The position numbers and the translations under genes are program-made. From Panorpa germanica (taxonomy: Eukaryota; Arthropoda; Insecta; Mecoptera; Panorpidae), in NCBI GenBank assembly GCA_963678705.1, contig OY783203.1:27324535-27388534 (forward strand): a stretch of 64,000 bases of DNA. Reading direction: 5' to 3'. Positions 9,955-52,800 of this stretch are shown here, in pieces. Position 1 is the stretch's first letter. Each line of letters begins with the position of its first letter. The notes beneath the pieces were generated by a model. That model worked only from the letters and a program-made list of their open reading frames with translations, was not told the origin of the DNA and made no database searches.

Positions 9955-12900
9955 ATGCCGGATCCACGAAAACCAAAATTTACGCCAGCAAGGGCACATG
10001 ACTATATTTATGGTATGTTAATTTATTTCTCATGGTTTATATATTTTTATAACTACTGTATTATTATTGAAATATATGTGCTACATAGTCTAATTGCAAA
10101 GGCTATTAAAAGAAAATATGTTAGAATATAGAAAACCAATGTTTCAGATCCTTGTTTTATTGTTTCCGGAAAGAAGGATCACATGAAAGCAGCCATGACG
10201 GCAATGATGACTGGAAATTCATTTGTAAGATGAACGACCTTTTATGCAATTGCAGTAATGTTTATTAAAATGAAATATTATTTTAGGGCATACAACCAAA
10301 TTTTAAATCAATGTTCAGTGATTTGCCTCATCGTCCAAGATTTAGATACGGTATGTACGGTGACTAAACTGTATATTTCTGTTAAGTTCTCGCTAATGAA
10401 GACGTACACTTGACTTCCTTGAAAACCCTTTTCGTGAATACTGCTATGTCTAAGTCCCCTATTTTATACCTTTTTCCCGGTGCCGTTTAATATACTGCAG
10501 ACTGTAAATATTTTAACGTAGTAGTAGTAATAACAAAGGTAAACCACTAATAAAACCGTATGTTCCCCATGCCTTTCAAAAAGTTACAAAATAACGTCCT
10601 AAGATTAGACTCTGTAGAAGAAAATGCTTATAAAGCGATAGCAAATCTTAGATGTTACCTTGCACTCATGTAATATTATACTAAAACAAAAACTACTAAT
10701 ATTTAATTTTATTATTTTACAGCTATTCTAAAAGCCTTTAATTCTTAAAAAAGGAATTTTTAATAGGTCATAAAACGATCTATATTAGGTAAAATCCTAC
10801 AGGTAACTTATGTTATATTGGAGAAACGTTAAATATATGTAACTGTATTCAGCGGGTAATAGCTTACCAGCTTAATAAATTTATATATACGAGTATAACA
10901 CAAACCAGACTAATATTTTCAGGAAATTACTGATATTTTTAATGAAATATTAAATTTTTCTTCATTTAATCATTAATAAATTCTTTTCTGTTCTTATAAA
11001 CTTATATAGTACTCCAAGGAAGTGGAGGAATACCACCATGTATTGATAGGTCATGGGAAGGTCGTCGACAAGCACTTCTGCATGACTTTTATAAAACAAA
11101 ACCACCAGATATCGTCGGAGTGGACCGATATAAATTTATTAAAAGGTATTGAATATAAAACATTATTCCATATATGTATATATATTCATAAGATATATCT
11201 AATAATATACATTTATAGTGCATTGTATCAGCCGACAGATATATGCACACAATATGTCGCAGCTGCTGTTAAATTACCAGGAGATATACCAGTTCATTAT
11301 GAAACAATAACAGAGGAAAAGATTAAAGATCAAGGAACCCAAACGTGTTATAGGTAAAATAAAATGATTTACTTATTATTTATTTCTAAACTTATCTGCT
11401 ACATAAATGTAACGTAAATAATACATTGGTATTTACATGATTAGTTCAAATATTTTATTATTACATTGTATACGTTGTTAATGTTATTATTCTGATTTAT
11501 AGAGAATCATCCGCCCAAACCTCTCCATGGCAACCAGATTACATTGTTCGACCTGGAGAAAATCCGGAAATATTAACATTGGCTTGGCTAGCATGGCGTA
11601 AATTTAAATAATTTTAAATTTATATAGTCCCTTACTGTATCATAATTTACTATAAAGATATGTAAAATTATTTTTGTAGGAGCAGGACTTCCTGCAGGAA
11701 TGCATGAAGTTGCCATCATAGAGAGAGCCCGTATTCGTCGTGCTTGGGAGAGTAGACTACCAGTACCAAGGAATCAAAAGGATTTAGATTTCCGTTCCAA
11801 ATGTATGGCCGATATAGAATTAGATGAATGGAAATTTAGAGAGCAAGAAATCGCAGACATACAAACGTATCGTTTCGAATTAATTTCAAAAATATATACC
11901 ACGCGTAAAGAAAGGTTGCATGAATACAATGACTTAAAACTGAGTATTCTTTGGGAAAAAAAGAAACAGTACAGAGACGAAAGATTTGCTAAAATTAAAT
12001 ATGAAACAAAGCGAGCTGTACGTAAACTTCAACAAAGTAACTTTGGAATATGCAACAAATACAAAAAAGAAAACAATACAATGGAATATATCAATTTTGC
12101 CTCCGAGTTACATGGCCCAATTAGAAGACATGGTGTACATCCGAGTCGGTTACACATGAAACTGCATCCTTCCAATTACAAGTCTAGCAAGAAAGGTATA
12201 TAATTATAGTTAAAAGTGTCTTATTTAAGAGTTATTTTGATTATATTGTAATTGTAGGTTTAGAAGGCTATGACACTACTCCAAGTTGGCTTTATACGGT
12301 ATCCAAGAAGCTTTTAAACCAATCTGCAACACAAAGCCCTTGTATGAAACAACATACTGATACAGATGAGCATCTGAAAACTATACATGATGATTTGAAA
12401 GGTTTATATTAAAACTCTAGCAATGATGTTGGCTCTGTTATATTACATTTATATTATCACCATTTTAGGATTAAGAGTTAATCGTATTTCGAAAGTTCCG
12501 AACATGCTTTTATGTAAAGCATTATTGAAGAGATTGGAAAAAAAATCTAAACGACCGTATACACCGGAATGTGAAGCTGTGCCTAAGATAGAAGAGGATG
12601 ATTATCAAGCTGCGATTTTCATGCAGAAAATTATTCGTGGAAGAGCAGTACAAGGATTGGTTGGTTTCCTTATTAGAGTTTCCAAATTACCGATGAAACA
12701 TTTCTTGACGATCAATACTTTTTATTCAAATTATAGATGTTTACTGGGCGTAATAGCTCGAAGGAATTAATTGCAGAATTACGCAGTACGCACAACCTTC
12801 TGCAAGAACCCTGTCCATTGCGCAAAATAGTAGCACGACAATTACGTTTCCAGGAAGGAATCATTTTTGGAGTAACTTTTTAATTACACTCTTCAACAAT

Positions 12901-22232: not shown

Positions 22233-25200
22233 TTAAGATGATTTTCTTATCAACATCCTGGCGGATTTTAGTGAAGCTGTGTTGTTGAACATGTGGTACC
22301 AGTACATTGCATTGGAATCTAAAACAGCCGAGGTGTAGTATATACCGGTCGGATGACTGCAAAGAAAATATGATTTCATGAAAATTAACGGTTCAAAGTT
22401 TAGTGAAATTTTTCATAGAATTGCACCACAACACACAACTCATCATAATAAACAATTTGGTGATTTGGTCATGTTTTGCGAAGTTTCTGTTGCTATTGCA
22501 CTTTATATGTAGTATGGTTTAACTTTTCCGTCGGATTAATTCTAACAGGTGAAGTGGTTTGCCATTTGTAGTCCAAAATAATGACATTTTATATAAACGA
22601 CTATGACTGAACTCGAAGCGAACTCTTTCATGACAAAAATTCATTGATTTTTATAAAAATTATTACGAATGGAGTCCAAATTGTTTACTGAGATAGCTGT
22701 ACACAATTCTCTTAACGTACGACGTTAATACGAAATGAATTACTGCATTGCGTTACTTTGACTAAGAATATACTCTTTCCTTACCTGAAGTGACAATTGT
22801 TATACCACCAGCCACCTTTCCATTTCTCTGCGCAGTTCTCAGTGGATCCATCCTGGTCTTTGTCGTATGTTGAGAACATCATTTCATAGTGATGTTCTAA
22901 CGAATCGCCTGTAACATTAACAATTTTAGTTTGTAGCAAAATGTAAAGGTTTGAGCGTATTTATTATCTCTTTAATTAACGCCAATAAATTTACCAGCAG
23001 TTCCAGCAAATCCACCACCTGATAGCGTGTATCCTTTCATGACGTCGCTTACAAAGAATTTACTATACCGGGCAAACTTCTTCTCGCCGTTGTAGGCGTT
23101 TAAGTCGACGTATAATTCATAGGCTCCGCGGTTGGTAATCTAAAATCAGAAGCAAGTAATATTGAATAGTTCAAAAAAATTTAGAAATGAAATTTTAATA
23201 AATATAAAAATAAAGCCCTCACATGGTGAATCTTTTCAAGACCTAGCCAATATTCTGCAGAAGCTGAACCGAACCCGTCAGTATACTCCTGATAGTTCTT
23301 CTCGAAATTAACCGAGCCGTCAAATCTGGATAAAATCACCTAAAGGAAAGATTGAAAGTTTTTATATTAGATAAAAATGCTGGTATATGTTTATAGTAAT
23401 GGGTAAATATTAGACTTACAGTCCATTTTCCTCCAAGCAGGTCCATATCACAGTAAGCCTCGAACGGAGCACATCCTGGAGGTTGAATTTTGTACACACC
23501 AGATTTTGAACCTTCTACACCGCTACAATCCTCAACAGATTCTAAAAATCAGAAAATCGTTGTTAAAAATATTGAATAAGAGTAAGTTAAAATTAAAATG
23601 GTAATTTTTGTAAATTCTTACGTTGAGGTATACATTGAGGTAGTTGATTGGACCACTTTTCATCAATACAAGTTGATGAAACCATTCCAACCAAAGTATA
23701 TTTTGGGTCACATGAAAATTGTATCACGCTCAAGTCCTTCACTGTTTGACCAGGAGTTGGAGGTACATCGGATCCTTGGATGCGATATCGTCCGTTAGTT
23801 TGGAACGCGGGTAAAACACACACTTTGTTTCCTATAAATATTCAATACAATAAAGTACGGACATGTAGGAGCTATAAAATGCAATTGGATTGGATTAAAA
23901 TTACCATTGCAAACTGGTACTGCGGATGACCACTTTCCTGAAGCGCAAGTGCTAGTTAGTTTACCGACTAATTCCCAACCGTCTTTACATACGAATTTCA
24001 AAGTTGACCACTCCTCTACAACATCACCCGGCTGTGGAACAGTTGCTGAACCAATTAAGACATAACTTCCTTCTTGGGGTGGTTTAGGTACTACACAACT
24101 GCCTTTATCTAAAACAAGAAGATTAGATGTAACTATATAATATAACATACTTTGAATGCTAATAATTTTATTATAATTGTATGATTTTTTTACTAACCTA
24201 AGCATAAGGGAACTTCAGACGACCAGTTTCCATGAATACATTTACTTTGCGCCTCACCAACAAGAACTAATCCATCGTAACAAGTAAATTGCAATTGACT
24301 GTATTCAGCAACCGTAGATCCAGGCGTTGGTGGAGTTGATGATCCAATTAGTGTAATGGTTCCTTTAGCCGGTGGCTTAGGAACAATGCAACCAGTTTTC
24401 TCTAAAATAATTAAATAAATTGAAATTTTTCGTAGTTTAAACTTTGAGTAAACGTAGAAATCTAAGCAGAAATAACTATTCAGTTACATACACATTACAT
24501 TTTTTAGTTGATCGAATTTTGTTAAATGAATTCTACGTTTTATGTTCACTGTTCAAATGTGATAGACTACGTATTGAATACATTATCGTAGTTTGATATA
24601 TGTTTTACTTATATTTACCAACGCATCGCGGAACTTCAGTTGTCCATTTTCCTCCTAAGCATGTGCTCTTATCGCTACCAATTAGTTCCAACCCATATTT
24701 ACAGGTATACTCTAAAGTAGTTGCTTCGTCTACACTGGACCCTGCGATTGGTGGAGTGGCTGTCCCAGCTATCGTGTAACAGCCCTTGTCCGGAGGATTG
24801 GGGATAATGCAAGTTTTTGCTCCTAAAAATAAAATGTGTATCATAATAGGAAAAAAAGTTGTAAATTATTTATTTAGAAAAACCTTTGTGGTTTACACTT
24901 TAGTTGAAAAAGTAATTGTTAAATGTATACGATACGATATATGTAACGAAGAATATAAATTTGTCTCACCTTCACATTTTGGAACTTCGGTTGTCCATTT
25001 GCCGTTAAAGCAAGTGCTAGTCACGTTGCCAACTATTTGGAATCCTGGGTAACAAACAAACTGAATAGTTTCCTTATCTTCTACCTGGAATCCGGGTTCA
25101 GCAGGATCCGTTGATCCAATTATATCATATTTGCCATTTTGTTGGAATTCGGGCAAGGTACAATACTTAATTTCTGAAAATATAAAAATTATTCATTTTG

Positions 25201-28200
25201 AGTGTTATGTTTATTTAGTGCCGTTGCTTCTTTCAAGATTAAAACTAATTCTTACCTTTGCAAGTGGGCTGCTCACCCAACCACATGCCATTGGTGCAAA
25301 GTGCTAAGGACCCTCCAACTAACGTAAGCTCTCCATTACAAGCAAAGTATATAACTGTCATATCAGGAACCAAGTCACCAGGAGTTGGAAATTCAGTTGA
25401 ACCAATAACTACATATTTACCATTTGCTGGTGGTTTTGGCAACCGACAGTATTTTATTTCTGTAATTTTTTAATAAAAATTAAGTGCTTCATAATAGTCT
25501 TACGAGTGTATTACCACAAGAAATTAATTTGTGTTGTGTACCTTTGCAAGTTGGTGGTTCGGAACTCCACTTTCCTGCTAAACATACACTGCATTCTTGG
25601 CCAACGAGTTGGTACCCAGGTTTACAGCTGTATTGTAAACTCTCTTTCTCGTTTAATACGCCACCAGGAGTTGGACGATTTAACGATCCAATTATAGTGT
25701 AATCTCCATTATCGGGCGGATATGGTATAGTGCAACCAATTATTTCTAAACCAAATAAATACATTTTAATTAATGATAGCAGAATTATACATAGAGGAAA
25801 AGTAATGCAGTAATAATGAACCACCTCTTATTGTGTGTAATATTGTTCCCATTGTTTAAATAACTCACCTTCGCACTTCGGTACTTTAGATGTCCATTGT
25901 CCTCCAGAGCACGTGCTAGTCTCTTTACCCACCAGTTGGTAACCTGGTTTACAGGTAAATTGCAGTGTCTCTTTCTCGGCTATTGTCGTACCAGTTACAG
26001 GTGGATTTCCAGATCCAACTAATGACATGCTTCCTTTATCTGGGGCATAAGGTACGACGCATCCCTTTTGCTCTAAAGCAATTGATTATTTTATAATTTG
26101 TGAGAAAGTACATAAATACATTTTTTTGTATTATTATATTACCTATACACTTGGGAGGGACAATGCTCCATGACCCATCCTTACAGGTGCTACATTGCGA
26201 ACCAACCAACTGGAAGTTTGGCAAGCAGGTATATGTAATGGTTTCCTTCTCTTTCACAGTACCTCCTGGTACTACTGCAGCTCCTGAGCCTGCCAATAAG
26301 TAACTTCCATGTTCAGGGTATGGAGGCAAAGTGCAAGGCTTGAGTTCTGAAATATTAAGTTTTTGTAATTCATTATTTAATATTATTAGAATTTCTTATC
26401 CCTGGATTAACATTTTGAAAAAGGATTAATAATCTTACCAAGACAGATTGGTACTTCACCAAGCCATTGTCCTTCAACGCATACAGATACACCGCCTCCA
26501 ATCAGTTCGCAGTTTTTATTACAAAAGAACGTTAAGACAGTTAAGTCCGGCACCATTGTTCCAGGAATTGGGTTTACCTCGGATTGACCAGCAATTGAAT
26601 AGAAACCATTCTTTGGATGTTGGGGCAGTGAACAGAACTTTGTAATTTCTAAATTTAAATGTTCATGAAATTATTAAAAAATTTATTAAGTGTATTAATT
26701 CAGATGTTACTACTTATAAAGTTTTAATCAAGTACAAATTTGTGGAATAAAGTATGTATAGAGTATATTTAAGCATACAAGAAAACCACAATATTATATA
26801 ACAATGTAACCAGTGGTGGCATTAGCCATTACGAGGTCCCGGGCGGCAGAACTTTGTGAGGCACTTGTTCTTTGTGAAATTTATGTAAATTGAAAGTAAC
26901 TATTTTTGATGATTATTGACGACAAATGCAAAAGTTATAAATAAATAATTGTAGAGTTTTAAAATTTTATATTGAAAGATTTATAAAAGTTAGCAAACAC
27001 AAAGACGACAAATATAAATAATGATAAACTAAGGTAAATGAGTATCTTAGAAGAATACGTATTGATCCTAGTGGGTTTTCTAAAGCGCGAGGTTCAAATA
27101 CCTATACCTCCCAGTAAACATTTTGGAGTCACTTTGACTTCATATTGAAGATGCGTCATGATTTTTTTGTCATAAAAGAGTTCATTTATAGTTCAGTTTC
27201 TCACATTTTTTCATATAAAATGTCTACTTTATCGGCTACAGATGACGGAACCACTCCACCTGTCGGAATACAAATGTAGATAAAGTTGATACGAACTATA
27301 ATTGAAGTGAAATAGTGATAGAAACGTCACTAAATAGGGCACTTCACCAAATTGTTTACTGGGCTATAGTATTGAATTATTCCACTTGGGTTGTTCCGCG
27401 AGAGCGCGAGGCCCCGAGCGGTTGCCCTGCTTGCCACTTCCTAAGGCTGTCTCTGCATGTGACGCAATGTTTTGAATAAATTAATATTTTATCTGTTTCT
27501 TCTTGTTAAAAGAATTTTATTTATAACTGCATTTACCATTTCATATTGGTTTAATCTTTTTAAAAACTATGAGTTTGAAAATATACTTTTCAACTAAATT
27601 TAAAGCTTACCAGCACAACGAGGAACTTCAGGAGTCCATTTTCCTCCAGTGCATGTGATGGTGGAGGTTCCAACAAGTTTGAATCCATCTTTACATTTGT
27701 ATTGCAGTGTAGTCCCTTCACCCACAATAGATCCTGCAATGGGAGGGGAAGACGATCCAATAATGGAATAGTATCCATCTTTTGGTGGATTTGGTACTAC
27801 GCAGTTTTCCGTATCTGGTTCTAAAGAATATTAAAATTATTATAATTTGATATAAGCTAAAGTTGTACTTATGAATTATTAGGCTGTTACACTCACTTAA
27901 GCATGATGGGGCATCTGAGGTCCATTTACCACCTATACATGTGCTGACGTCTTTACCAACCAAGATATATCCCGGTTTGCAAACATATTGTAAAGTTTCT
28001 TTTTCATTAACGGAAGTTCCAGGTACTGGAGTAGATGCTGATCCCAATAGCGTGTAGTCTCCGTTTTGAGGAAAATTAGGCAAAGTGCATTGCTGATTTC
28101 CTGGAAATAATAACAAAATTAGACAATTTGTTGATCTATATAAGTGCCTACGATATAAGTTTCTTATATCATACCTTTTTTGCATGTCGGAAATTTCCCC

Positions 28201-30065
28201 AGCCATACTCCTCCACTACAAATAACAATAGAATCCCCATATAATGTATAATCATCCGCACAAGAGAAAGACAGCGCTGTCAAATCGGCAGCGGTTTGTC
28301 CAGGAACTGGTGAAATCGTTGATCCTATTATTACGTACTGACCGTTACTTGGTGGTTGGGGCAGCACACACTTGTCAGTTTCTGAAATACAACAATTCAT
28401 AGATGTAATAAAGTCATACTCATCCCGAGTCAATCTTTTGACCCTATTGCCGACCTAAAAGACCCCGTTTCTGGGTTCATGCAGGTAAAAAAGAGGATCG
28501 TTTTTGCTCCTCCTTTGGGCCTACATGTGGCAGTTATCAGACAAATTATGAAGTTTAGGCTCAAATGATTAATTGAATATTATTATGAGTATTGAAGAAA
28601 TATTATAGAACATACTTCTACAAACTGGTGGATTTGACGACCATTGACCATTTCGACAAACAGCAGTGTTTTGACCAATTAATACAAATGAAGTATCACA
28701 ATAATATGTCAGCGCTGTCCATTCTTTTACTTGTTCCCCAGGGTTTGGTAGGTTTGGTGATCCTATAATATTGTACCCTCCGTCTTTTGGATTTTCAGGG
28801 AGAGTGCATTCTGTGATTTCTGTAAGAATTAATTAATAAGTGTTAGGCAATCTGAGACTAGATTCATATTCAAACAACGTTAAACTTACTTTCACATTCC
28901 TGGAAATCTGTAACCCATTCATTTTGCAGACAGATGGCAGTATTAGAATGAACTGGTTTGTATCCTGCTTTGCACGTGTAGTATAGCACGGTGGAGTTGC
29001 CAACTGCAGTGCCTGGTGTAGGGGTGGTGCTTTGACCAGCCCCAAGAACTACATATTTACCATTAGGCGGTTGATTGGGCAAGATGCAATTCCTTTAAAT
29101 AACAAATTATTTATTCAGTATAAGGATGACGTCATATTTGTGATTAAAAGTTTAAAAAAATACTTACGAATCGCAAATATTCACGCTGCAAGACCTTGTG
29201 CAAATATCCGGTGCATTGGATTGGGCATGCAATCCTAAAAATAACAAAAATAATTATCAATTAAACAACAAGTGGATATAGAACTCTTGAAAATCGCAAT
29301 TGTATTCATACAAATCATATATTTTGTTGGTAAGAACCTATTTCACTGCTACAACATTTCTCTGTAACGCCATACTTTACATCACCATTTCATATTTTTG
29401 TAACAAGGCATCCATACAGAAAAAACTTTTTTACCTAATATTTTCTTAAAACACAACTCAAATAACTGCAAAATAAGTTTAACCTAACCTAATTAAGTTG
29501 CAACAAAAGAAAACTATGTTATTTTCCTGTTTCTTTTACTACAGAGATTGGAATTGTGGAATTTTTATAAGCCATATCCTGTATGTTCAGTTTGTGCCGC
29601 CCCTTCACGGTCAATTCCGTGTCACTTTTAACTTGGAGAAATACTGACATCACTGAATGTCACTGACACTGAATGCCGCGGCACGTATCGACAGTAATGT
29701 CTGCGCAGAGACCTCCAAACTTTTAAATATTGTTGGATGTTGCAACAGTGGATCGCGATTAATCATCAAACATCGTAAAAACACCAATGCAGCTCAGTGC
29801 ATCAATACAAAAAACTGTTAACTTTATTTGATTTTTGTTTAAATATTAAACGTTCTAACCAAGACAAAGTAGCACATAAAATTGCTACATTAAAAAATAC
29901 ATCGCACATCGTCTGAAGTACAATGTACCATTTGACCATCCTTACATTTGGAAACGCGTCGTATGTACTAAACATTTATTAAAATATTTAATTTAAATAA
30001 ACTAGCTACTCACCGTAAGGAAAAATTAAAAATATATAAAAACACGGCAGCAGCCACAGAACCAT
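22233..30065 (-). CDS. Secreted protein: 15 sushi (CCP) modules plus fibrinogen-related domain
   Basis: Twenty-two exons, 3831 nt, 1276 residues: 30065-30014, 29234-29168, then one exon per CCP at 29092-28890, 28819-28616, 28381-28175, 28100-27897, 27820-27611, 26648-26439, 26346-26143, 26072-25869, 25745-25542, 25459-25256, 25173-24970, 24822-24619, 24401-24198, 24108-23905 and 23831-23622. Five exons encode the fibrinogen-related domain: 23541-23420, 23339-23223, 23139-22995, 22908-22785 and 22356-22233. The N-terminus ([18 protein letters not shown]) is a signal peptide, and no transmembrane segment follows. Each CCP has the C...C...C...W...C pattern, e.g. [17 protein letters not shown] then [11 protein letters not shown]. 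The FReD (residues about 1067-1276) shows [20 protein letters not shown], a Ca-site-like [26 protein letters not shown] and [10 protein letters not shown]. By family knowledge CCPs bind protein ligands and FReDs often recognise microbial or acetylated glycans, so an extracellular recognition role is inferred. Confidence 0.9.
22446..22692. mobile_element. Decayed copy of the CCCAGTAAAC-family MITE in FReD intron
   Basis: Starts near TAAACAATTTGGTG and ends GGAGTCCAAATTGTTTACTG, the two termini of the family seen at 27110, 45045 and elsewhere. Internal words (GACATTTTATATAAA, GCGAACTCTTTCATGACAAA) match the 254-bp copies with many substitutions. It lies in the intron between the last two fibrinogen exons and is the oldest-looking copy in the window. 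Confidence 0.7.
26811..27455. mobile_element. hAT-like non-autonomous element, interrupted by a nested MITE
   Basis: The outer ends CAGTGGTGGCATTAGCC and CCTAAGGCTGTCTCTG form an imperfect inverted repeat and are flanked by the 8-bp pair aatgtaac/catgtgac (6 of 8 match), typical of hAT. Its sequence aligns with the copy at 30925-31370 on both sides of the insertion at 27110-27363. It sits in the intron between CCP5 and CCP6 of the sushi gene. Confidence 0.7.
27110..27363 (+). mobile_element. 254-bp CCCAGTAAAC-family MITE nested in a hAT-like element
   Basis: Begins CCCAGTAAACATTTTGGAG and ends CACCAAATTGTTTACTGGG. Comparison with the uninterrupted copy near 31260 shows the insertion point, with TATA on both sides a few bases away. 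It is 254 bp, the same length as the copy at 45045-45298, and non-coding. Confidence 0.85.
29235..30013 (-). other. First intron of the sushi-fibrinogen gene
   Basis: This 779-bp intron separates the signal-peptide exon from the short exon [20 protein letters not shown]. It contains no recognised repeat or gene. Confidence 0.75.
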
Positions 30066-32334
30066 GTTGACTTATTGACTTGATGTTTTATAATGCGAAT
30101 TCTTTACCGACTAGAACTTGTAGCCCTCAGTTTTCAGTTAAAAGAACAACCCAGCAAGGTCATCTCTTGTTTAAAAAGTGTTGAGTCTTCTTTATTACTG
30201 CGTTTAGATAATAGATTACAAATCTTTCATGAAATTAATGAACAAAAGAAATAGTTTTTGAACTAAAATGTTTACAATAACTCGAACTATACCAAAAATT
30301 TGTGTATTGTATTTTTAATTTTTATTAACTTGATTTATTCAAAAGAAAATTATTTTAAATTGAATTTGTTATTTACTTTTTATTTATTTCAATTTATTCT
30401 CTAAAGCAGAGGTCTCCAAACTACGGTCTGCCGAGTCGTTTCAAGCGAACCGCGGGCTCTTTTTTAAGAAAGTCAGAAATTAAATTTCATCAAATACACA
30501 ATATGCACAATAGAAAGTCAAGGCATCCTCAAAGCTTATCTATTGCAAATTTTTAATTGACACACAAAACTTTCTAAACACAAAACGTAAACTCATGTAT
30601 TATCTAACGTAATATTTTTTACCTAACGTTATTTTGTGTTATTTACCGAAGGTTAGCTCGTTATCAAATATAAATAAAAGACATTTAAAGATTTTTATAA
30701 ATACATTAATTAGGTATGTAACAAAACATTCATGTACATTCATGTAATATTTTACAATCACCTTGAACAAAACCTAGTAATATTTAATAATATGTTTCAT
30801 ATGTATAGCAATTTTGCGGATGATGAATGGGTTTCAAAGAGGCTTGAAGATATAAAGTCAAATATGTTGCAATAGAAAATAAAATAAACGGAACAGTGGC
30901 CGTTTTGTTTTCGAGTCCGATCAGCAGGGGCGGCATTAGCCATTGCGAGGCCTCGTTCGGCAAATTTTTGCGATGCCGCGAGCGGAACTTTGCCGGTCCC
31001 CGGGGTGGTAGATCTTTGCGAGCCCCTTGTTCTTTGTGTAATTTATGTAAATTGTAAGTAAGTATTTTTGATGATGATTGACAAGAAATGTAAAAGTTAT
31101 AAATAACTAAATGTAGACTTTTAAAATTTTATATTGGAAGAATTATACAAGTTAACAAGCACAAAGACGTAAATATTAATGAGGTACATGAGTGTCTTAA
31201 AAGATATACGCAGAGATTCTAGTGGGATTTCTAAAGAGTGAGGCGCGAGATTCAAATGCATATAGAGTAATGAATTTTTCTACTTGGGTTGTTGCACGAG
31301 AATACGAGGGCCCTACAAGAGCGAAGACCCGGGCGGTTGCCCTGCTTGCCACCCCCTAAGGCCGCCTCTGTGTCCAGCGTTCTATTTTCTGGGATTGGTT
31401 GGTTCTGATAATAAGTTAATTTAATTATGTTACCTCAAAAACACAAAATTTGTGAGGCAGCGGTGTTGTTCATATATATGGGGATTATTGTCATTGATAG
31501 AGGTCGTTGGTGCTAGGACTTAGCATCAGAAATAAGTCCGACGATAAATACATAAGATTAAAATAGAAATGATAAATAAAATTATTAAATTTAAAGTTTG
31601 CATATTAATCAACATTTTTCTCCTTTACTAAGATTTTGTAAATGAATTCAAATTGAAATATTTTTAGCTATTGTATTTTATAATACAGATTTATCAGCAT
31701 TGTTAAAAATGCATTGACCTTGGCAGTTTGTTATTTTAATTGAAACTACTGAATCTTGTTACAAATTCTGACAGTATTTGTAATTTTAGTCAGTGACGGC
31801 TTTCGTTGCTGGAGCCCCATTTCTTACGTGAAATTTTATCATTATTTTCTGTAATAAATACTTGCAAATTTCAAAGATAATGTAACAATATTTGAATATA
31901 TTTTTCTATAGAAAACTATGGAAAAACTGAAATAAATACATTTAGTAGATAAAATCTCTTTGTTCCAATTTTAATATGTAGAACCTTGTTCAAAAATATC
32001 TATTCCATAAATCATGCTCCACCCAAAATATTTCATTGGTGAAGATACATCCAATCATTCTCCGTAGGCGTGGCCAAAGGATGCTGCGTGTATCTTCTCT
32101 GTACCAAATGATGTATCATGATATTTATCTTGGACAAGATACATATGTTACAATTTAGGATACGAGTTTTTTGATTTGTATACAACATCTCAGTTATTAT
32201 CTTGAAACGGATGGTGAAAGTTTGTCAACTCGATAGTTTCTGTGATCTCCGTATATGAATACAAGGTGCAATATGTGCTATTAATTAAATACCGCGTACA
32301 TTGATTTAAATCAAGTGAAATCACTTTTTCCAAG
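30066..32334. other. Shared upstream region of the sushi-fibrinogen gene and the DM-domain gene
   Basis: The two genes are divergent across 2.3 kb. The interval contains a hAT-terminus-like piece at about 30409 (GCAGAGGTCTCCAAACTACG, without a matching right end) and the repeat at 30925-31370. The remainder, 31371-32334, is probably the dmrt promoter and 5' UTR but shows no clear motif. Confidence 0.5.
30925..31370. mobile_element. hAT-like non-autonomous element, uninterrupted copy
   Basis: Ends CAGGGGCGGCATTAGCC and CCCCTAAGGCCGCCTCTG form an imperfect inverted repeat. The body is homologous to 26811-27455 minus its nested insert. A clear 8-bp target duplication could not be identified here. 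Confidence 0.65.
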
Positions 32335-35300
32335 ATGTTGGGCTCCAGGAATTCTCGTGTGTCAGCTAGAGTTCCAAAATGTGCTCGCTGCAGAAATCAC
32401 GGGGTGATTTCCGGACTACGAGGGCATAAAAAGGAGTGCCTTTACAAGGGGTGCTTGTGTGCTAAATGTAACTTAATTAAAGAGCGACAAAGAATAATGG
32501 CGGCACAGGTAAAATATATCATTTCTACTCAACACTAATAATGAATTCAGATAAATCTATTTTGCATGATATCTTAGTTGCTGGTTTCACAAAAATGTCT
32601 AAGGTCTATATTGAGCAGCCTTAAATCATAAACACGAACAGTATTAAGTTAAATCAGTGGCGCACTATCCTACAAACTCTGCGCCTTACAGGGGCTTCAG
32701 ACTAATCCCTTATAAAAATGCAAATTAGATCAATTGAAATCTGAGGTTTTGCTGGTTTTTGTAGTAAGAAAGTTAAAATTATAATTGAAGTACCTTAAAT
32801 ATCAAATTGTCCAGTGCGCTATGAAGATATAATCTGTCTCGGGTCTTTCTGTCACTGAATGTCACTTTCCAAACCAACCCTAACCCCCCCCCTTCCCTTC
32901 CCCTGTTACAACTTGTTTCATACACATACAGTACTTTTCGTAAAACATAAAATGTTAATATTCTATTTAGGAAAGCCTAATTATATTTCATATTTTTTAT
33001 TATGCAATTTATTTCATGTAAATTAAACGCAAATTTCAATAAATAAATCAAATTTATCTTGATACGCAATGTTCGATATTAATTACTAAGCCGGAATTGC
33101 GTTTTGTGTAGGTTTATGCTTAGCAAATAAACTATGTTAAAAAAAACCATTCACGGCAAATTTTTTAAATCACCAATTAACAATAGTATAGTTAAAAATA
33201 GTATAAAAAATCAGTACAAAAGTAATCTTTAATGACAATGTTACTACCCAAGTAGAAAAAGAATCTTGGAATTAGTTTGGGGTAAGGTAGTAGGTGTGAA
33301 CCTTGCACTACAAGACAATTTCTATATGAGAAAATCAACCTGGCTGTAATAAAGCTTGTAGCAAGATAACAAGTGTAACTCTTGCACTGCAAGACAATTT
33401 TCAACCTTGGTATCAAGACAAGATTAATACATTGGATATATCTTATTGCTTTTTAAAATCATCGCTATATTTTACCATGGTATCTCTTATTAAGTAGCTT
33501 TGTGTGGCTTTACTCATACAAATGCGTCCACTGTTCAGTACCGTATGCGTCGAATTGACAGGCAACCTTGACAACTCCGTCATCTATTGCATGTGAGCAA
33601 ATGGAATGACGTCAGAATATTGAATGATACTGCGTTGACAGATCAGTATTTGTCGATTTGTATATTAAACAAATTCATTAAAAGCGTTAGTGTAAGGATA
33701 GTTGCATTTCCAACAATTGTATTCTGACTTTAGAGCTGTACCCCTTTTACAGTAAAGGAAAGGTGCAAAAGACGAATATCTTCCTGCTTACTTGTATATT
33801 CGCAGAAGAAGGAACGAATAGAATAAAGCAATCTATAACGAGATGCAAATAAGTGATTATCCAAAGAAATAATACTAAAATCCACACGACGTATCGATGC
33901 TTGCGGTACTGTCATGTGCACATACATGTACCATTATTGAATTCGTTCGATTCTGATATGTCAACGCGACCTAATTTAAGCCGTCCTTTTATATAAGGCT
34001 TTGTAAAATGTATAGTTTTTAAATAAAAATAAATTAAATTTGAATTATTTAAAAATTAAATTTGTAATGTATGAATTATTAATGCACTTTCTAACTATAA
34101 ACCGAATAATAAATAAGAATTCAGTGTGGCAGAATCCAAATCTATTTAACTGACTGTCAATCAAGTGCGGGCATATTGAGAATATGTTTAACAACATGGG
34201 TGCGTGTAATTTTATCCATATAATTCTAACTGAGTGAATAAATCTCAAGTGACTACGTAAATATTTACATTCTCGTCTCTCGGTGACGACGCGAGCGGAC
34301 AAACTCGACTTCATAGCATCATGGCATCGTGGCAACGTCCCTATCTATACTAAAATGGAACGAAATACATCACCTCAAGCAAGGATTCTCAATACAAATG
34401 ACCACTGGAAAAGAAAACATATTGTGATTATTACTATTTAAAACTGGTTGAAAATATTACAATTTCTGATTATCATTTTTATTCAGTTTTATAACTTTAT
34501 ATTTTAAATTTTGTTACTCTTTTGTTTTTACTCTTTTTGTTTCCTTTTAAGCTATTTAACTATTTTAATACTGAATCTTACATCTCTCTAAACATAGCAA
34601 TGTTCACCTTTTACATAACATTTTTTAGGTTAATATAATATAGGATTACAAAAAAGGCTATCCTTTGACATAAATTTATGTTTCCTGGCGCTAATAAATC
34701 TTTCCTTGCAAGATTATATAATAATTCATATTTAATTAATATATTAGTTAAATATTTTTAATTATTTAATTTTACATTGATTACAATAACGTAACAAAGA
34801 AAAATATACAGTAAAAAAAATTATGTGTCATGGTACCGGTATGCTATAATGGTTTTATGACAAATATTCCTATAAAATGAAATAAAAATTGCTATGATCT
34901 TCTCTAATCGGCCTTTTATACGAGCAGATACGGTTCTGAATCTGATTCAGATAGATATTCCAATCTATATCGATATTTCAATTCCATTAATTCCATAGAT
35001 AATTTAATTAATATTTTAATTTTAATAGTAACAGCTAGAAGTATCTCTTAACCTATGTCCACACTTGCGATGTTCGCTTATTCGTGCTCTTTGCCGATTG
35101 TCAGATTCCTTTGTTTGATTTGTTTTATTTAGCGCTAGTAGAACGAAAACATTTGAGTTCGTGTACGGATACAAGAATCTTTGCCTGTGAACTCGAACTA
35201 AGTATACACTCGAACACGAATGTGTAGACGAAGGGTTAGGAACCACTGGATATAAAACGATATACTGCAATAGTAGCACTTCAGACAGGGCAGGCCATAG

Positions 35301-38300
35301 GGACATGGGGTGCAAGGGGTGCAACACTGCAGTTCTATTGGCGTTACCATTTGTTGACTATATCTATCTATTAGTAACCAGTGTATTAAGTTACACAAAA
35401 AGCACGTCTAAAAGTTACCGGCTAATAGAATTTAAAAAAAAGTACAAATGTTTGCTCATCTCAAAAATAAAAACTGTGTTTTTAGAGCGTTAGATATGTG
35501 GTATTGTTGTTGGATATGCGGTAATACTAAAACTATTGCTGCCTAAAATTAGGCAGCGACGTCGTTCACATAAATAAAGCCTCTAAATCATTAAAACGTA
35601 GTAGAGAGTTCTTTCACATACATCTTACTAGACCAGATTGAATGTTGGTACCATTTCCAAACAAACTTTCATCTTCCAAAAATCTCTGTTCAATGCGCTT
35701 GTGTCCTATGTCTTAATTTCTATAATAGTGTACTATATATTGATAAAGTGGGTTATTAGAACTTCAAATGTTCAATTTTTTTCTAATAACTCCTTATATG
35801 TTAGGAGATGTTAAAAATTAAAAAAGTCATTCTGTCTCTTTAATTATTAAAGGGAATAAACGTTGTACAATTTTCCAAATGCATGTGGCCTCACAACCGC
35901 TATGTTGTTTCTGTTTTATACAACAGAGCGTAAAAGAGATATATTCTTGACAGAACTCTGACAAGTTTACAGGTTACTAACCTTACAGCTCATAAATCTC
36001 TGCTATATGTATTTATACAGTGAGTGTAAAAAGTATTCGTACACCTCGGTATGCAGAAAGAAAAACGAATTTGCTAGGCTTCCTGGTATATATTTTCTAA
36101 AAAACAAAATAGTATCAAACACTTCAAGGTTACAGCATTGTATTTATTAAAAAAAAAAAAGATTAAAAGAAAGACTGAGTGCGTGGTAAAAATAAATACG
36201 CACAATATATTCGAAATCACAAACAAAAAGTATTCGTACATTTCATAAATTAGTGATAAAATATAAAGAATTAGTGATGAAATAACAAAAAAATATAGTA
36301 ATTAATATTTTGTTGGTCCACCTCTTGCATTAATAATAGCTTGGAGTCTTCGTGGCATAGAATCAACTAGTTTAGAAGTGTAAGAAGACGGTATCAGAGC
36401 CCATTCCTCGCGAAGCGCGGTTTTTAATGTTTCTTTATTCGAAATGTGTCGTGTTCGAATTTTTTTATCAAGATAATCCCACACATGCTCTATAACATTA
36501 ATATCGGGTGATTGAGGAGGTATTTCAAGGTGTTTTGAAGTGTTAAAAGGATCCACATCTTGGTATTCCATGCTGTGTGCTTTGGATAATCATTATTAAA
36601 ACCCATTTCTGTTACACTTGCGGGAAGATTCTCTTTTAAGATATTAATATACACTTTTTGATCCATGATTCCATCAATAAATGCAAGTTTCCCCACTCCA
36701 GTAGCACTCATACAACCTCAACCCAAACCGTATTTAAAAATATTATATTTAGACACTGTTATACACTATTATATTTACACTGATGGTTGAAATACGGTGG
36801 TTCTGTTTTGGTTTGGGGTTATATAAGCCATTTCACGTCATAGAAATGTCTAACCTCTCTAGCGCTAAAATTACAATTCAAATTTTTAATTGCTATATTT
36901 CCATCAACATTTAGATATTTAATAAAATAGACACGCCAATACACATTTATTAATATCAATTTCAATTAACAATTGAAAAATCGACCACTAAAAAATGAGG
37001 ACACAAGCCCATTATTACTAGATACAAAAACAGATACTAAAACAATTAGTAATTCACATATAAAATTAAGTAAAATTTTACATTAAGAAAACCTCTGTCT
37101 TACGTAAGCTGTAATATTTGTTTTTATTTTGTGTCTATCGGATACCCACGGATGTAACACGTAAACGGTATTTGAAATAAAAGTTACTTGTAAAGTTCAG
37201 AGATAAAAAAAGTAAAGATCCACTATTGCTTAGAGTGGTGGACTGTTAGCACAGGTCCTGTGGTTTTAATCATCCCGTCTCCCGTGTTGAGTTTGTGTAA
37301 ATGTTAAACTTACACTAAATTCTAGAAACACGTCCACACGAGATATCCGCAGGCTCTTTTGTATTTGTTTTCAATAGAAAAACATGAGATCCATCTCAGT
37401 AATAGGATTAGGAATCAAAAAACGCGATAAAGCGGCAGAAACAAAATGAAATAAAGAAGGATGGTAAAGAACAGTTACGTGGCAATGTCAGGGTCGTATT
37501 AGTCACTAGGCACAATAAACACACGCCCTCGTAACCGTAATAAGGATATTAATATTAAAATTAATTAACATTACAACAAGTTACTCACAAAATAATATGT
37601 TAGTTACCTTTAGGCTACGTATTATGAATTATTTTCATTTAAAATTGATTACAATTTGTTCTATTAGTTTCCGTCGGTTAGCGTTCAAATTCTGGTAGAA
37701 TATTCTTTACATAATTTTGCACTGATTTCAGGTTGCCTTAAAGCGTCAGCAAGCTGCGGAAGATGCTATAGCCCTCCATCTTGTTTCAGCGGAAACCGGA
37801 TCCACATTAGAAGCACTGCCACCCGGAAGAATCTTTGGAATGTCAGTAACGAAACCCTGTGACTCTCCACCTGAGCAGGAAGTAGTGACATCATCAGCAT
37901 CTACGAGTCCTGCAAGTCCTGCTGCTTCTGTAAGTCCTGGGGCCTTCTCTGCACCTCCACCAGTTTCATCCACCTCATCATCACACGAATCTCCAGGACC
38001 AGTGAGTTCTGCGGCAGTTGACGTGTTAACACAATTATTTCCACATAGAAAAAGGTCTGTTCTGGAGCTTGTTCTGAGAAGGTACTGCTCGTTTCAATTA
38101 GATATTATTTTTAGATAGAAACTTGAAAGCCTATCTGCATTTTAAATTACTGTTTTATAAATTGCCTACGTAATAACTTGCTAACAAACGAGACAAATAT
38201 ATAATTTTAATTTTTAGTTTTTACTAACATAACATAAAGTTATCAGACAAAAGCAACCTGTTTAACACTTGTTTAGGTGATTGAATACTGCAATGACTTT

Positions 38301-48052: not shown

Positions 48053-49144
48053 ATGCGACGGGTATGGGGACTAGGGGAAAAGGTATTTGGGGGGGACATA
48101 CAAAAGAGAATATGGATATTTGATAGACTGATAGCCAGTATGATGTTGTATGGAGCAGAGGTTTGGGGGTGGAAGGAACAAGAAAAGTTGGAAAGAATAC
48201 AGGTGTGATATATGAAATGGGTACTAGGGCTGGTACAGGTGCACGCCAGGATACATGGTGATGGAGGAGCTAAAAATGGATAAGATACGAATTAAAACAG
48301 GGGAAAGAGCAGTAAAATACGAGGAGAAATTGAACAGAGCGGAAAGCAAAATTTTAAAGAAAATAAGAGAGGATAGCATAAAGAATGGTGGGGAGGAGGT
48401 CCAAAAAAGAGAAAGGAGTACTTTGAAAGCAATGGAATGGCGATCGAGGAGGCAGAGAGGAGAAGAGAAGGTGGCGCAAGTGTGGAAGAGGAGCTAAGGA
48501 GAAGGGATAAGGAGATACAACAGCAGGAGAGAATGGGAAAAATAGAAAAAAGTAACTACAATAAAAGATATAAGAGGTTATGGGAAAATAATGTGCCTCA
48601 GTACCTTATAGAAAAAGACATAAAACACATAAGAAGAACAGCAAGGTTTAGATTGGGAAATGAGGAAAAAGGAAACAGATACTGGGAAAAGAGTGAGGAA
48701 AGAAAGTGTAGAATGTGCGGAGCGGAGGACGAAACACTGGAGCACATTAAGTTTGAGTGTAAGGAAAAAGTAGCGAGCGAAAGGAATATTGGCCAGCTAC
48801 TAAAGGGAGGCAGTGAAGGAAAGAGGTGGATGGCGGAAATAGTAAGAAGGAAAGGAAGAACAGGAGAATAAATAAGCTGGTGGAGAATAATAGAGAGGTC
48901 AAGAGAAGAAGAAGCAGAAAGCACTTTTTAGAAGTACTAAAAGTCTAGACTAATTTTTTTTTAGTTTTAATAAATAAATAAAGTTTAGTTTTAAGTAAAT
49001 AATTAGTTTTAAATAAAATTAATAAAGTTTAGTTTTAAGGTTGAATTGTTAAGATAGGAATGAAATGTATTAAGAAATAGAATAGAATACGGAATAGATT
49101 GTAAAGCCGAAAGGCATACACAATTAATAATAAAATAAATAAAA
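48053..49144 (+). pseudogene. Non-LTR retrotransposon 3' end, truncated
   Basis: The reading frame from 48053 (MRRVWGLGEKVFGGDIQKRI, MMLYGAEVWGWKEQEKLERI) is the end of a reverse-transcriptase ORF. It has an in-frame stop near 48208 and frameshifts, then continues as IEKSNYNKRYKRLWENNVPQ and the Cys/His motif CRMCGAEDETLEHIKFEC, typical of the C-terminus of insect LINE polyproteins. The 3' UTR ends in AAATAAATAAAATAATAATT-like sequence around 49144. The 5' truncation and disruptions show a dead copy. Confidence 0.85.
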
Positions 49145-49847: not shown

Positions 49848-52800
49848 ATGTTGTGGACGAACTTATCCACAAACGCATTGCCAGTTTTACTTCAACACAT
49901 AGGTACAATACTTACCTAATAATTGGTTTGTGTATTGTGTACTAGTTGAATTTAACCTTACAAATAAACCTGTTATAAAATTTATACCAGTTATAAACTG
50001 ATAATAAGCCTGTCCGGACAGGCTTTATACCTGGTATAAATTTCATAACGATTTTATGTGAAAGAGGAGCTAAGGAGAAGGGATAAGGAGATACAACAAC
50101 AGGAAAGAATGGGAAAAATCGAGAAAAGCAATTACAATACAAGATATAAAAGGATTTGGGAAAGTAATATACCTCAGTACTTAATAGAAAAAGACATAAA
50201 AAACATAAGAAGGACAGCAAGGTTTAGATTGGGAAATGAGGAAAAAGGAAACAGATACTGGGAAAGTAGTGAGGAAAGAATGTGTAGAGTGTGCGGAACG
50301 GAGGACGAAACATTGGAGCACATTAAGTGTGATTGTAAGGAAAAAGTAGTGAGTGAGATGAATATTGAGCAGCTCTTCAAAAGGGGCAAGGAAGGGAACA
50401 AATGGATGGCAGAAATAATTAGAAGAAGGAAGGCTGAAGCTTTTTACATTTTTTTAAGGCAGAAGAATGTAATGCCGAAAGTGAAAGGAAAAGGTGGATG
50501 GCGGAGATAGAGAAAAAAAACTAGGAAAGAGAAGGAATGGCAGAGTAGAAACAGGAGGGACAGTAGCAGGAGGAGCGAAGCAGTAGCAGTTTTGTTTTTA
50601 TTTTTATAAGGAATTTCATATATTTTTTTTTTCGTTTGAAATAAATGAGAATGTTTAGATTTAATAAGGATCAAAATTGAATTAAGCACAATGACATGTA
50701 TATAAATGAGTTAAGGCACAAGAATATAGTCCCAAATGGCAAAAACATTAAAAATAAAATAATATAACAGGTTTATTTGTAAGACGGTTACAGTTTATTT
50801 GAATTTCAACAAAATTATCAGAGATATAGTTATTTACATTTGTTTTATTTCAGTCTTGACTTATCTTGCAACTTATAGATGCAATGTAGTATTTTCGAAA
50901 GAAAGTGAACCTCTACTGTTTCCGCAATCGATATATGAAGGGCATCCTTTTATTTTCTACAATAGCCATCTTTTAGAGAGCTCAGATGAATATGTTCTGG
51001 CTGCTTTGGAAGTACCTTGCAATGTACGTTTGATGGGTCAGCTGAGTAAGAATTACTAAAATAGTTAGTCTTATTTATTGTTTTTAGGCATTCTTCATTC
51101 ATATGGCAAAACCGGAGGTCATTTTAGATGCTTACGGCAGGAGCTTTTCATTGGCATCTCAACGTTATAGTCAACGAAAGATCATAATACTGATGACAGA
51201 TTGTCAGTCGCCCACTGAACAAAGAGCGTGTGACATTCAAGAACTGTTAAAGCACCCTGTTTTTAGAGGTATTATTAAATAGTAGTATTGGAGCTGCAGT
51301 TTCTTAGTTGCACGCGCCATTGCATTATTTTCCTTTATAAAAATTGCATCTACATGGAAATGTTAAACTTTTTGTAGATTTACCAGATGTGTTAGTAATC
51401 CTGCAAGACGACAACGCAGATTTCGAAATAATAACAACGAAATTCAAAGGCAAATATAATTCATCAGAACCAATTTTATTAGACAGATTTTATAAAAACT
51501 TAACATTTCAAAGTAACTCTGATTTATTTCCAGATAAAATTAAAAATCTAGAAGGTAAGAGAAAGCTAGGCTGTGGCTAGGTGATTATATGAATATCAAA
51601 TCCTATTTCTTTAAGACATAAATTTCTTCATAAAGGGCGAGTCCTTCGACTGACAACGATTAACTACAAACCATATACAATGTGGGACCGTGTATCTGGC
51701 GGAGGTCAGGCCGGAATGCATAGCGAAGGAGAAGATTCGGATGGAACTGTTCAAATAGAAGGCACCGAAATGAAACTTATTCTCGAGTTTTGTGCGAAGA
51801 TCAACTGCACCATACGAATTGTACCAGGTGCTTTATTATAAAACAAAGTTTAACTCTAAAAAGTATAAGATATTTACCTTTAAATTTGTACTAACAGAGG
51901 AAGAGCATCTTTGGGGAGAAATTTGGGATGATAATCGCACAGGAAATGGAATTCTGGGTACGCTATTAAAAGGCAATGCGGATATAGGTTTAGCAGCATT
52001 GTATTCTTGGCATCATGAATATACGTATCTAGATTTTTCTGTTCCACAAACTAGAACAGGAATTACTTGCCTAACCCCAGCTCCCAGGTTAGCGAAATAT
52101 ATAAGCTCATATTAAGTTCGTAATTAATTTGAAGAACGCACTTGAGCTAACATCTAATTCATAATTCATCAGAGACCTAATAGCCTACATGGTTATATGG
52201 TTATTTTCATTTTCAGATTAAAAGCAGGATGGTTGATTCCCGCTTTGCCGTTTTCTAAATGGCTTTGGATTGCAGTTTTAATTTCATTTATTCTTTCTGC
52301 TGTTTCTATATATGCAATTGGAAAAATACTGAATCAGGAAAGTAGTTTGGGCTACGCTACATTTTTGGTTGGTGGGATATATTTACTGCAAGCACCATCT
52401 CAAGAATTAAACTCACCACAAGAGCGTCAAATGGTGGCTTGGATTCTTATAGTGGCAATGATGTTAGCCAATGTTTACGGTGGAGGTCTTAGCAGCATTA
52501 TGACGATTCCTAGGTAAGACACCTAAATACTAGTCCAATACTAATAACTAAAGATCTACAACAGCTTCTAATTCTTCAAGGTTCGAAGCTTCTATTGACA
52601 CAGTAGAACAATTAGCGGCCAGTGGATTACAATGGAGTGGAACCCACGATGCATGGACATTTTCTATCCTAACTGCTTCACAGGTATAACTAGAAAACCC
52701 ATTTAAATTATAATTCCTAAATTCCTTAATCATTCGTGAACATCATTTTAGCCTGACCTAGTGACACTTCGTAAGCAATTTAAGACTAGAAGCTTTGAAG

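Follow-up and report, generated by a model that had tools for sequence, protein, structure and literature searches.

Large germline repertoires of lectins with diversity in the binding domain are best known from molluscs, and the usual explanation for recognition diversity in insects is Dscam splicing together with smaller families. Snail fibrinogen-related proteins (FREPs) carry immunoglobulin-type domains N-terminal to their fibrinogen-related domain (FReD), and lectins of the class of FIBCD1, L/M-ficolin and tachylectin 5A have collagen, a coiled coil or a membrane anchor instead of a stalk of complement control protein (CCP, or sushi) modules. In Biomphalaria glabrata, gene conversion and point mutation are both said to diversify the FREPs (PMC12074976, in excerpt). 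Somatic change is also described for snail FREPs. The FREPs of Tribolium join a C-terminal FReD to varied N-terminal parts (PMC2375007, in excerpt). Here we describe a gene that combines a long CCP stalk with a FReD, located in a stretch of 64,000 nucleotides of the scorpionfly Panorpa germanica (assembly GCA_963678705.1, contig OY783203.1, positions 27,324,535 to 27,388,534 of the forward strand; hereafter the window), together with the family to which it belongs.

The window gene is best explained as encoding a secreted, lectin-like protein of 15 CCPs and a C-terminal FReD with an intact calcium-site pattern, and as a conserved, X-linked member of a large Panorpa CCP–FReD family; that both gene and family exist is close to certain. 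Statistics of codon change suggest that in the chromosome 5 members the ligand pocket is very probably under diversifying selection. Taking the evidence together we lean, with modest conviction, towards a secreted family of CCP–FReD lectins diversified for many ligands, most likely in immunity.

The X-linked gene and its paralogue

The script-assembled model runs on the minus strand from 30065 to 22233, on chromosome X (C21, 47.99 Mb), and comprises 22 exons and 3831 nt that encode 1276 aa without an internal stop and with a single stop at the end; all 21 introns are GT..AG. A first-pass annotation of the window had proposed a protein of 1276 residues with a signal peptide, 15 single-exon CCPs and a terminal FReD, and this was borne out to the residue count. 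A signal peptide and a short Cys-rich segment are followed by the 15 CCPs, each on one exon of 203–210 nt, and by a FReD divided over five exons (F1 to F5). CCP1 starts in phase 2, every later CCP joint is in phase 1, and the joint between exons 17 and 18, where CCP15 passes into the FReD, is phase-compatible. The exons are listed below; each CCP exon (3 to 17) is supported by the gene model, the CCP alignment and the profile scan.

30014..30065, minus: exon 1, signal peptide, 52 nt (gene model; the paralogue L009 has an exon of the same size)
29168..29234, minus: exon 2, short segment with three Cys (gene model; matching exon in L009)
28890..29092, minus: exon 3, CCP1
28616..28819, minus: exon 4, CCP2
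28175..28381, minus: exon 5, CCP3
27897..28100, minus: exon 6, CCP4
27611..27820, minus: exon 7, CCP5
26439..26648, minus: exon 8, CCP6, one extra Cys
26143..26346, minus: exon 9, CCP7, one extra Cys
25869..26072, minus: exon 10, CCP8
25542..25745, minus: exon 11, CCP9, one extra Cys
25256..25459, minus: exon 12, CCP10, without a partner in L009
24970..25173, minus: exon 13, CCP11
24619..24822, minus: exon 14, CCP12, one extra Cys
24198..24401, minus: exon 15, CCP13, two copies in L009
23905..24108, minus: exon 16, CCP14
23622..23831, minus: exon 17, CCP15
23420..23541, minus: exon 18, FReD part F1 (gene model, Pfam, exon scan)
23223..23339, minus: exon 19, FReD part F2 (gene model, Pfam, exon scan)
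22995..23139, minus: exon 20, FReD part F3 (gene model, Pfam, exon scan)
22785..22908, minus: exon 21, FReD part F4, with the calcium-site Asp and the N413-C414-H415 equivalents (gene model, FIBCD1 alignment, exon scan)
22233..22356, minus: exon 22, FReD part F5 and stop, with the equivalents of 431, 432 and 443 (gene model, FIBCD1 alignment, exon scan)

In hidden Markov model searches both domains named in that annotation scored well above the Pfam cut-offs: Sushi (PF00084) at 8.9e-95 and 311.5 bits (cut-off 20.7), with 11 stretches passing individually, and Fibrinogen_C (PF00147) at 1.7e-57 and 195.2 bits (cut-off 22) over residues 1077–1273. The remaining four CCPs show the four-Cys pattern in an alignment of the 15 modules, which are 27–56% identical to one another and share a pattern around GS..P.PG. 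No domain besides these two was found in the protein by Pfam at E ≤ 0.001. Scanning the window at E ≤ 0.01 with a profile made from its CCPs and with its FReD exons returned the 15 CCP and five FReD exons in order, no further CCP or FReD exon, and no match in the reversed sequence; as the CCP profile was built from the window CCPs, their scan scores are not independent. A sixteenth CCP was sought with the CCP profile in the long intron of 962 bp, and none was found at E ≤ 0.01. By eye, two copies of a similar interspersed element lie at 26800–27480, in the intron between CCP5 and CCP6, and at 30900–31390, just upstream of the gene.

A sushi search of the genome found a paralogue, L009, at about X:29181686-29188850, 1.8 Mb from the window gene. 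It has 15 CCPs and the five FReD exons of the window gene, together with a signal-peptide exon of 52 nt and a counterpart of the N-terminal Cys exon. Its CCPs align with window CCP1–9 and 11–15 in near-identical module order. L009 CCP1–8 find their best partners in window CCP1–8, CCP7 scoring nearly as well with window CCP11; CCP9 scores highest with window CCP8 (236) and then with window CCP9 (223); CCP10 and CCP11 correspond to window CCP11 and CCP12, CCP12 and CCP13 both to window CCP13, and CCP14 and CCP15 to window CCP14 and CCP15. The shared count of 15 is partly coincidence, in that window CCP10 has no partner in L009 and CCP13 is doubled there. The doubled exon (5574–6370 of L009) differs between its copies at four of 204 bases and sits within a repeat of 423 bases that is 95.5% identical; it is evidently a recent exon duplication.

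The two X-linked genes are 61% identical over the 14 CCP pairs and 67% identical over the FReD, with ratios of nonsynonymous to synonymous change (dN/dS) of 0.33 and 0.20, respectively, which are rough because synonymous change is large (0.82 and 1.10). In a tree of F1–F3 the window gene groups with L009 (95/89), and 17 core genes of the family, described below, form one clade (99/97). Because L009 repeats the same plan and both parts are constrained, we read the window gene as one gene and not two; on this comparison it is itself conserved, not hypervariable.

The family across the genome

The genome searched comprised 464,208,970 bases in 249 contigs (254 scaffolds are given in the excerpted text of the genome note, PMC11464959, so a few may be absent from the set searched). 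A Pfam FReD search gave at least 226 matches, with the best 150 of 995 candidates scored, and the 150 matches listed fell into 102 clusters, 53 of them on C5 (chromosome 5). Searching with an F3 exon typical of the C5 genes, we scored the best 150 of 289 candidates, which separated into 95 core places at 79–100% identity and 55 at 52–75%, a second subfamily that was excluded; the 95 are places and not proven genes. Most of the core places are on C5 (88, between 2.4 and 24.6 Mb), with two on C6 and one each on C7, C11, C14, C35 and C84. Among the matches listed, 88 of the 95 core F3 places have a CCP exon on their own strand no more than 10 kb upstream, and 71 have a CCP2-type exon, the count drawing on 150 listed matches from one search and 32 from the sushi search. 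A stop inside F3 was found at four of the 150 scored places. A first tally, the union of 150 FReD matches and 113 of 150 sushi matches, amounted to 166 places and is not a gene count.

Among the first 24 ten-kilobase regions (L009–L032), 21 have F1–F3 and at least one CCP, namely the 17 core genes, L009, L023, L031 and L032; as these regions were picked from sushi matches, they are no guide to the proportion of FReDs with CCPs. The core genes have three to seven CCPs each and matches to all five FReD exon types, with exon phases imposed by the script. The 52-nt signal-peptide exon was found in six of the 17, and the stretch examined may stop short of it in others. L032 (C8:9850000-9859999) has one CCP followed by three F1–F4 sets in a row. 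L029 and L030, both on chromosome 1, have one CCP match each and no FReD match in their 10 kb. L012 (C13) was considered as a family member and rejected, its CCPs being of another type and its 10 kb holding no FReD match.

We also considered alternative F4 or F5 exons within one gene and rejected them, the scans at E ≤ 0.01, which could miss diverged alternative exons, having found a single F4 and a single F5 per core gene; the exceptions are a weak opposite-strand F5 match in L010 and a match over part of F5 in L020. In five later places, both exons were new in L034 and L035 (with the start of F4 unsure in L034), both were close to those of L014 in L037, F4 was new and no F5 was placed by the script in L038, and neither was found in L036. 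L033 (C5:24557000-24566999) is a FReD gene of the second subfamily with no CCP match in 3.2 kb upstream, the sole such place examined; ten second-subfamily F3 places like it are listed between C5 24.39 and 24.79 Mb.

Variation and probable selection at the ligand pocket

The FIBCD1 paper (PMC3908420, in excerpt) gives residues 405, 415, 431, 432 and 443 as the pocket and 381, 398 and 413 as sugar contacts, and names Cys414 for its backbone and residues 297 and 390 for the S3 site. The window FReD has the equivalents of D393, D395, C401 and C414 and keeps those of N413, C414 and H415; Y405 is replaced by W, and Y431, A432 and W443 by D, S and N. With W, H, D, S and N at 405, 415, 431, 432 and 443 it is not classed as an acetyl-binding FReD lectin. 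The pocket of L009 is the same except for F at 432 and differences at the outer positions 381 and 398. On this agreement both X-linked genes resemble a form whose ligand is fixed, and they would be conserved members of the family.

The homologues of exons 21 (F4) and 22 (F5) are hypervariable in the chromosome 5 relatives. Pocket tests were made on 11 core genes, excluding L011, whose FReD is the same as that of L010, and L015, L016, L018, L019 and L021, whose FReD exons are defective or unplaced; L020 (truncated F5) and L024 (truncated F3) were first kept and then removed, leaving nine genes with complete models. Aligned to human FIBCD1, all 11 have Asp393, Cys401 and Cys414, and ten have Asp395. 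Position 405 reads R, Y, R, N, H, Y, H, R, Y, Y and L across the genes, position 413 A, N, D, N, K, S, V, V, A, Y and A, and position 415 G, G, G, S, G, M, S, S, G, K and G. Over eight contact positions (405, 415, 431, 432, 443, 381, 398 and 413, with invariant Cys414 excluded) mean entropy was 2.31 bits, compared with 0.60 at the other 200 columns, a value matched by none of 100000 random sets from all columns and by two of 100000 from within F4 and F5.

Codon change was compared over the same positions. In the 11 genes the eight contacts gave a dN/dS of 3.33 (gene bootstrap 1.82–8.33), the remainder of F4/F5 0.61 (0.41–0.93) and F1–F3 0.26. When eight F4/F5 columns were drawn at random, the contact-set proportion of nonsynonymous differences (pN) was reached in 0 of 20000 draws, and its excess over the synonymous proportion (pN − pS) in 10 of 20000. 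The five named pocket residues alone gave 3.27 (46 and 106 of 20000 draws within F4/F5 for pN and pN − pS, respectively), and together with Cys414 2.55 (409 and 368 of 20000). In the nine complete-model genes the ratio was 3.63 at the eight contacts and 4.14 at six inner positions. Across five disjoint gene pairs, the pocket with two columns on either side had 104.2 nonsynonymous changes over 262.2 sites and 6.8 synonymous changes over 55.8 sites, and the remaining FReD 240.3 over 2188.3 and 128.7 over 580.7. Whole-exon ratios reached 2.01 in F4 and 2.09 in F5 in the group of L014, L024 and L027; pooled over core genes (7 to 16 depending on the exon) they were 0.35 in CCP2, 0.38 in CCP3, 0.41 in the last CCP, 0.22 in F1 and 0.14 in F2.

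A group of close relatives (L013, L017, L019, L026 and L028, with L019 kept and then removed as a check) allowed exons to be compared with the introns beside them. In its ten pairs the introns flanking F4 differ by 2.7–8.3%, F4 itself by 15.7–27.5% and F5 by 15.3–22.9%. Without L019, introns differ by 0.028–0.061 and pS in F3 is 0.022, with pN and pS of 0.223 and 0.212 in F4 and of 0.202 and 0.212 in F5. The F4–F5 intron differs by less than 6% in 22 pairs of the 11 genes, and in all 22 it is exceeded by F4 and by F5. Distances in F4 and F5 do not track those in other parts or each other (r −0.04 to 0.40, p ≥ 0.055; F4 with F5, r 0.00), and those of F1, its intron and F2 agree (r 0.76–0.94). 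The F4–F5 intron tracks F1 poorly (r 0.07), so mosaic history extends beyond F4 and F5, and L019 combines the introns of the close group with an F4 start that resembles L014 of the other group. On our reading, exchange between copies would homogenise most of the gene while selection shields the pocket exons from it; alternatively, a mutation process may be aimed at these exons.

Elsewhere in the window, a DM domain exon and a DMA motif exon on the plus strand (32305–38118) mark a Dmrt-type gene beside the CCP–FReD gene on X, and a CFAP91 exon lies at 11646–12203 (plus strand). Two similar ligand-gated channel exons, at 52158–52517 and 60753–61112 (plus strand), both score below the Pfam cut-off and are perhaps a tandem pair of ionotropic receptors. 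Two similar fragments of retroelement ends lie at 48377–48871 and 50049–50510 (plus strand), the first with a weak zf-RVT match below the cut-off.

Alternatives, proposed role and known counterparts

Several observations weigh against a family diversified at the pocket for many ligands. The eight positions were fixed after the variation of F4 and F5 and the letters at these positions were known, so the choice was not blind. Adding Cys414, which completes the nine S1 contacts, lowers dN/dS to 2.73 (14 of 20000 draws for pN and 29 for pN − pS), and with the further addition of S3 residues 297 and 390 it falls to 1.15 (127 and 3637 of 20000); by these ratios the excess is a property of the S1 pocket and does not extend to all of the residues named. 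Pooled over whole exons the core genes stay below 1 (F3 0.70, F4 0.72, F5 0.89), and in the close group F4 and F5 give 0.88 and 0.85 and F3, a non-pocket exon, 1.63 on few synonymous changes. Gene pairs are not independent, and the ratios rest on no tree-based codon model. Silent sites in F4 and F5 are also raised (pS 0.21 against 0.03–0.06 in introns), so the excess is partly old or exchanged sequence. At most positions of the pocket the window gene matches L009, so the pair does not share the hypervariability. Seven of the 17 core genes have at least one FReD exon that is truncated, internally deleted or unplaced by the script, which would also suit an origin of the F4/F5 excess in relaxed constraint or pseudogene decay. 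We regard such decay as very unlikely: all five FReD exons are open in the nine complete-model genes, Asp393 and both Cys are invariant in the 11, and at the pocket pN is greater than pS, an outcome that relaxation by itself does not produce. That a separate CCP gene and a neighbouring FReD gene had been joined by eye is most improbable; the CCP-free upstream region of L033 would fit it, but L009 has the same order, CCPs lie upstream of nearly all core F3 places, and the joint between CCP15 and the FReD keeps its phase.

Reproductive, venom and salivary proteins also show selection of this kind, a further point against our reading, and scorpionfly males provide a salivary gift. A reproductive or nuptial-gift family, whose lectins would act in seminal fluid, in the egg coat or in that gift and whose pockets would diversify by sexual conflict or gamete recognition, would fit the pocket selection and the size of the family equally well; we hold it to be unlikely, invertebrate FReD proteins being mostly tied to defence according to the title of a work cited in PMC6208332. 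It is also doubtful, though not far-fetched, that the X-linked window gene encodes a structural or developmental protein of the extracellular matrix and that the chromosome 5 radiation took another job. The constraint on the window gene and L009 (dN/dS 0.20–0.33), the use that 15 CCPs could have as a long spacer, and the presence of tenascins, MFAP4 and angiopoietins among FReD relatives in the PDB all agree with a matrix protein, but in the window FReD the calcium-site Asp is kept, as are the disulphide Cys and the lectin-pocket N-C-H.

For a family of secreted lectins diversified for many ligands, we propose the following working. The window protein would be a rod of 15 CCPs that holds a C-terminal FReD head, with the N-terminal Cys cluster perhaps joining it to other proteins. 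On chromosome 5 the family would have spread to ~90 shorter copies in which the scaffold (CCPs, F1–F3, calcium Asp and disulphide Cys) stays largely constant and the ligand pocket encoded by F4 and F5 appears to change under positive selection. Each secreted lectin could then bind a different surface ligand through its pocket, with the CCP rod clustering the lectin or recruiting effectors, and exchange between copies would keep the scaffold alike while selection holds the pockets different. Recognition of parasites or microbes would be the likeliest cause of such selection, and we rate the chance of an immune role for the family as even. More tentatively, and with somewhat less than even confidence, we suggest a germline repertoire of roughly a hundred CCP–FReD lectins, with F4 and F5 as diversity cassettes that are shuffled and selected while exchange keeps scaffold and introns alike. 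The initial reading of the window gene as a candidate pattern-recognition or complement-like receptor of hemolymph or eggshell fares unevenly: its secreted architecture of many CCPs and a FReD is confirmed, recognition is a plausible role, and the strongest evidence for that role lies in the chromosome 5 relatives and not in the window copy. The family gives the X-linked 15-CCP gene its context, as a conserved relative of a fast radiation. With ~90 members that are alike in scaffold and differ in pocket, most of them on a single chromosome, the family would open the evolution of lectin pockets to simple experiments on expression and binding.

Our search of the literature, confined to open-access papers, found no insect CCP–FReD family and no such Panorpa genes among the matches listed. 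The nearest solved relatives of the window FReD by sequence are FIBCD1, ficolin-1, MFAP4 and tenascin. It resembles the acetyl-binding FReD lectins in its matches to FIBCD1 (1.5e-44), ficolin-1 (1.6e-44) and tachylectin 5A (7e-29) and in its equivalents of Asp393/Asp395, Cys401, Cys414 and N413-C414-H415, and differs from them in lacking Y431, A432 and W443, in the hypervariable pockets of its chromosome 5 relatives, and in the CCP stalk of the Panorpa protein. Tandem CCPs are shared with complement regulators, factor H being the best PDB match of window CCP10–13 (1.2e-43), but the window protein has a FReD head and the likeness to factor H is one of CCP sequence alone. In Tribolium, the excerpted text of PMC2375007 names CCPs with C-type lectin or protease domains and not with a FReD, whereas in Panorpa CCP and FReD are combined. 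Like the FREPs of Biomphalaria glabrata, the Panorpa genes form a large secreted FReD family; unlike them, the window protein has CCPs and no immunoglobulin domain (Pfam, E ≤ 0.001), and our data are those of one assembled haplotype. If the repertoire of diversity cassettes is real, it would be an insect counterpart of the snail FREPs, built on a different architecture.

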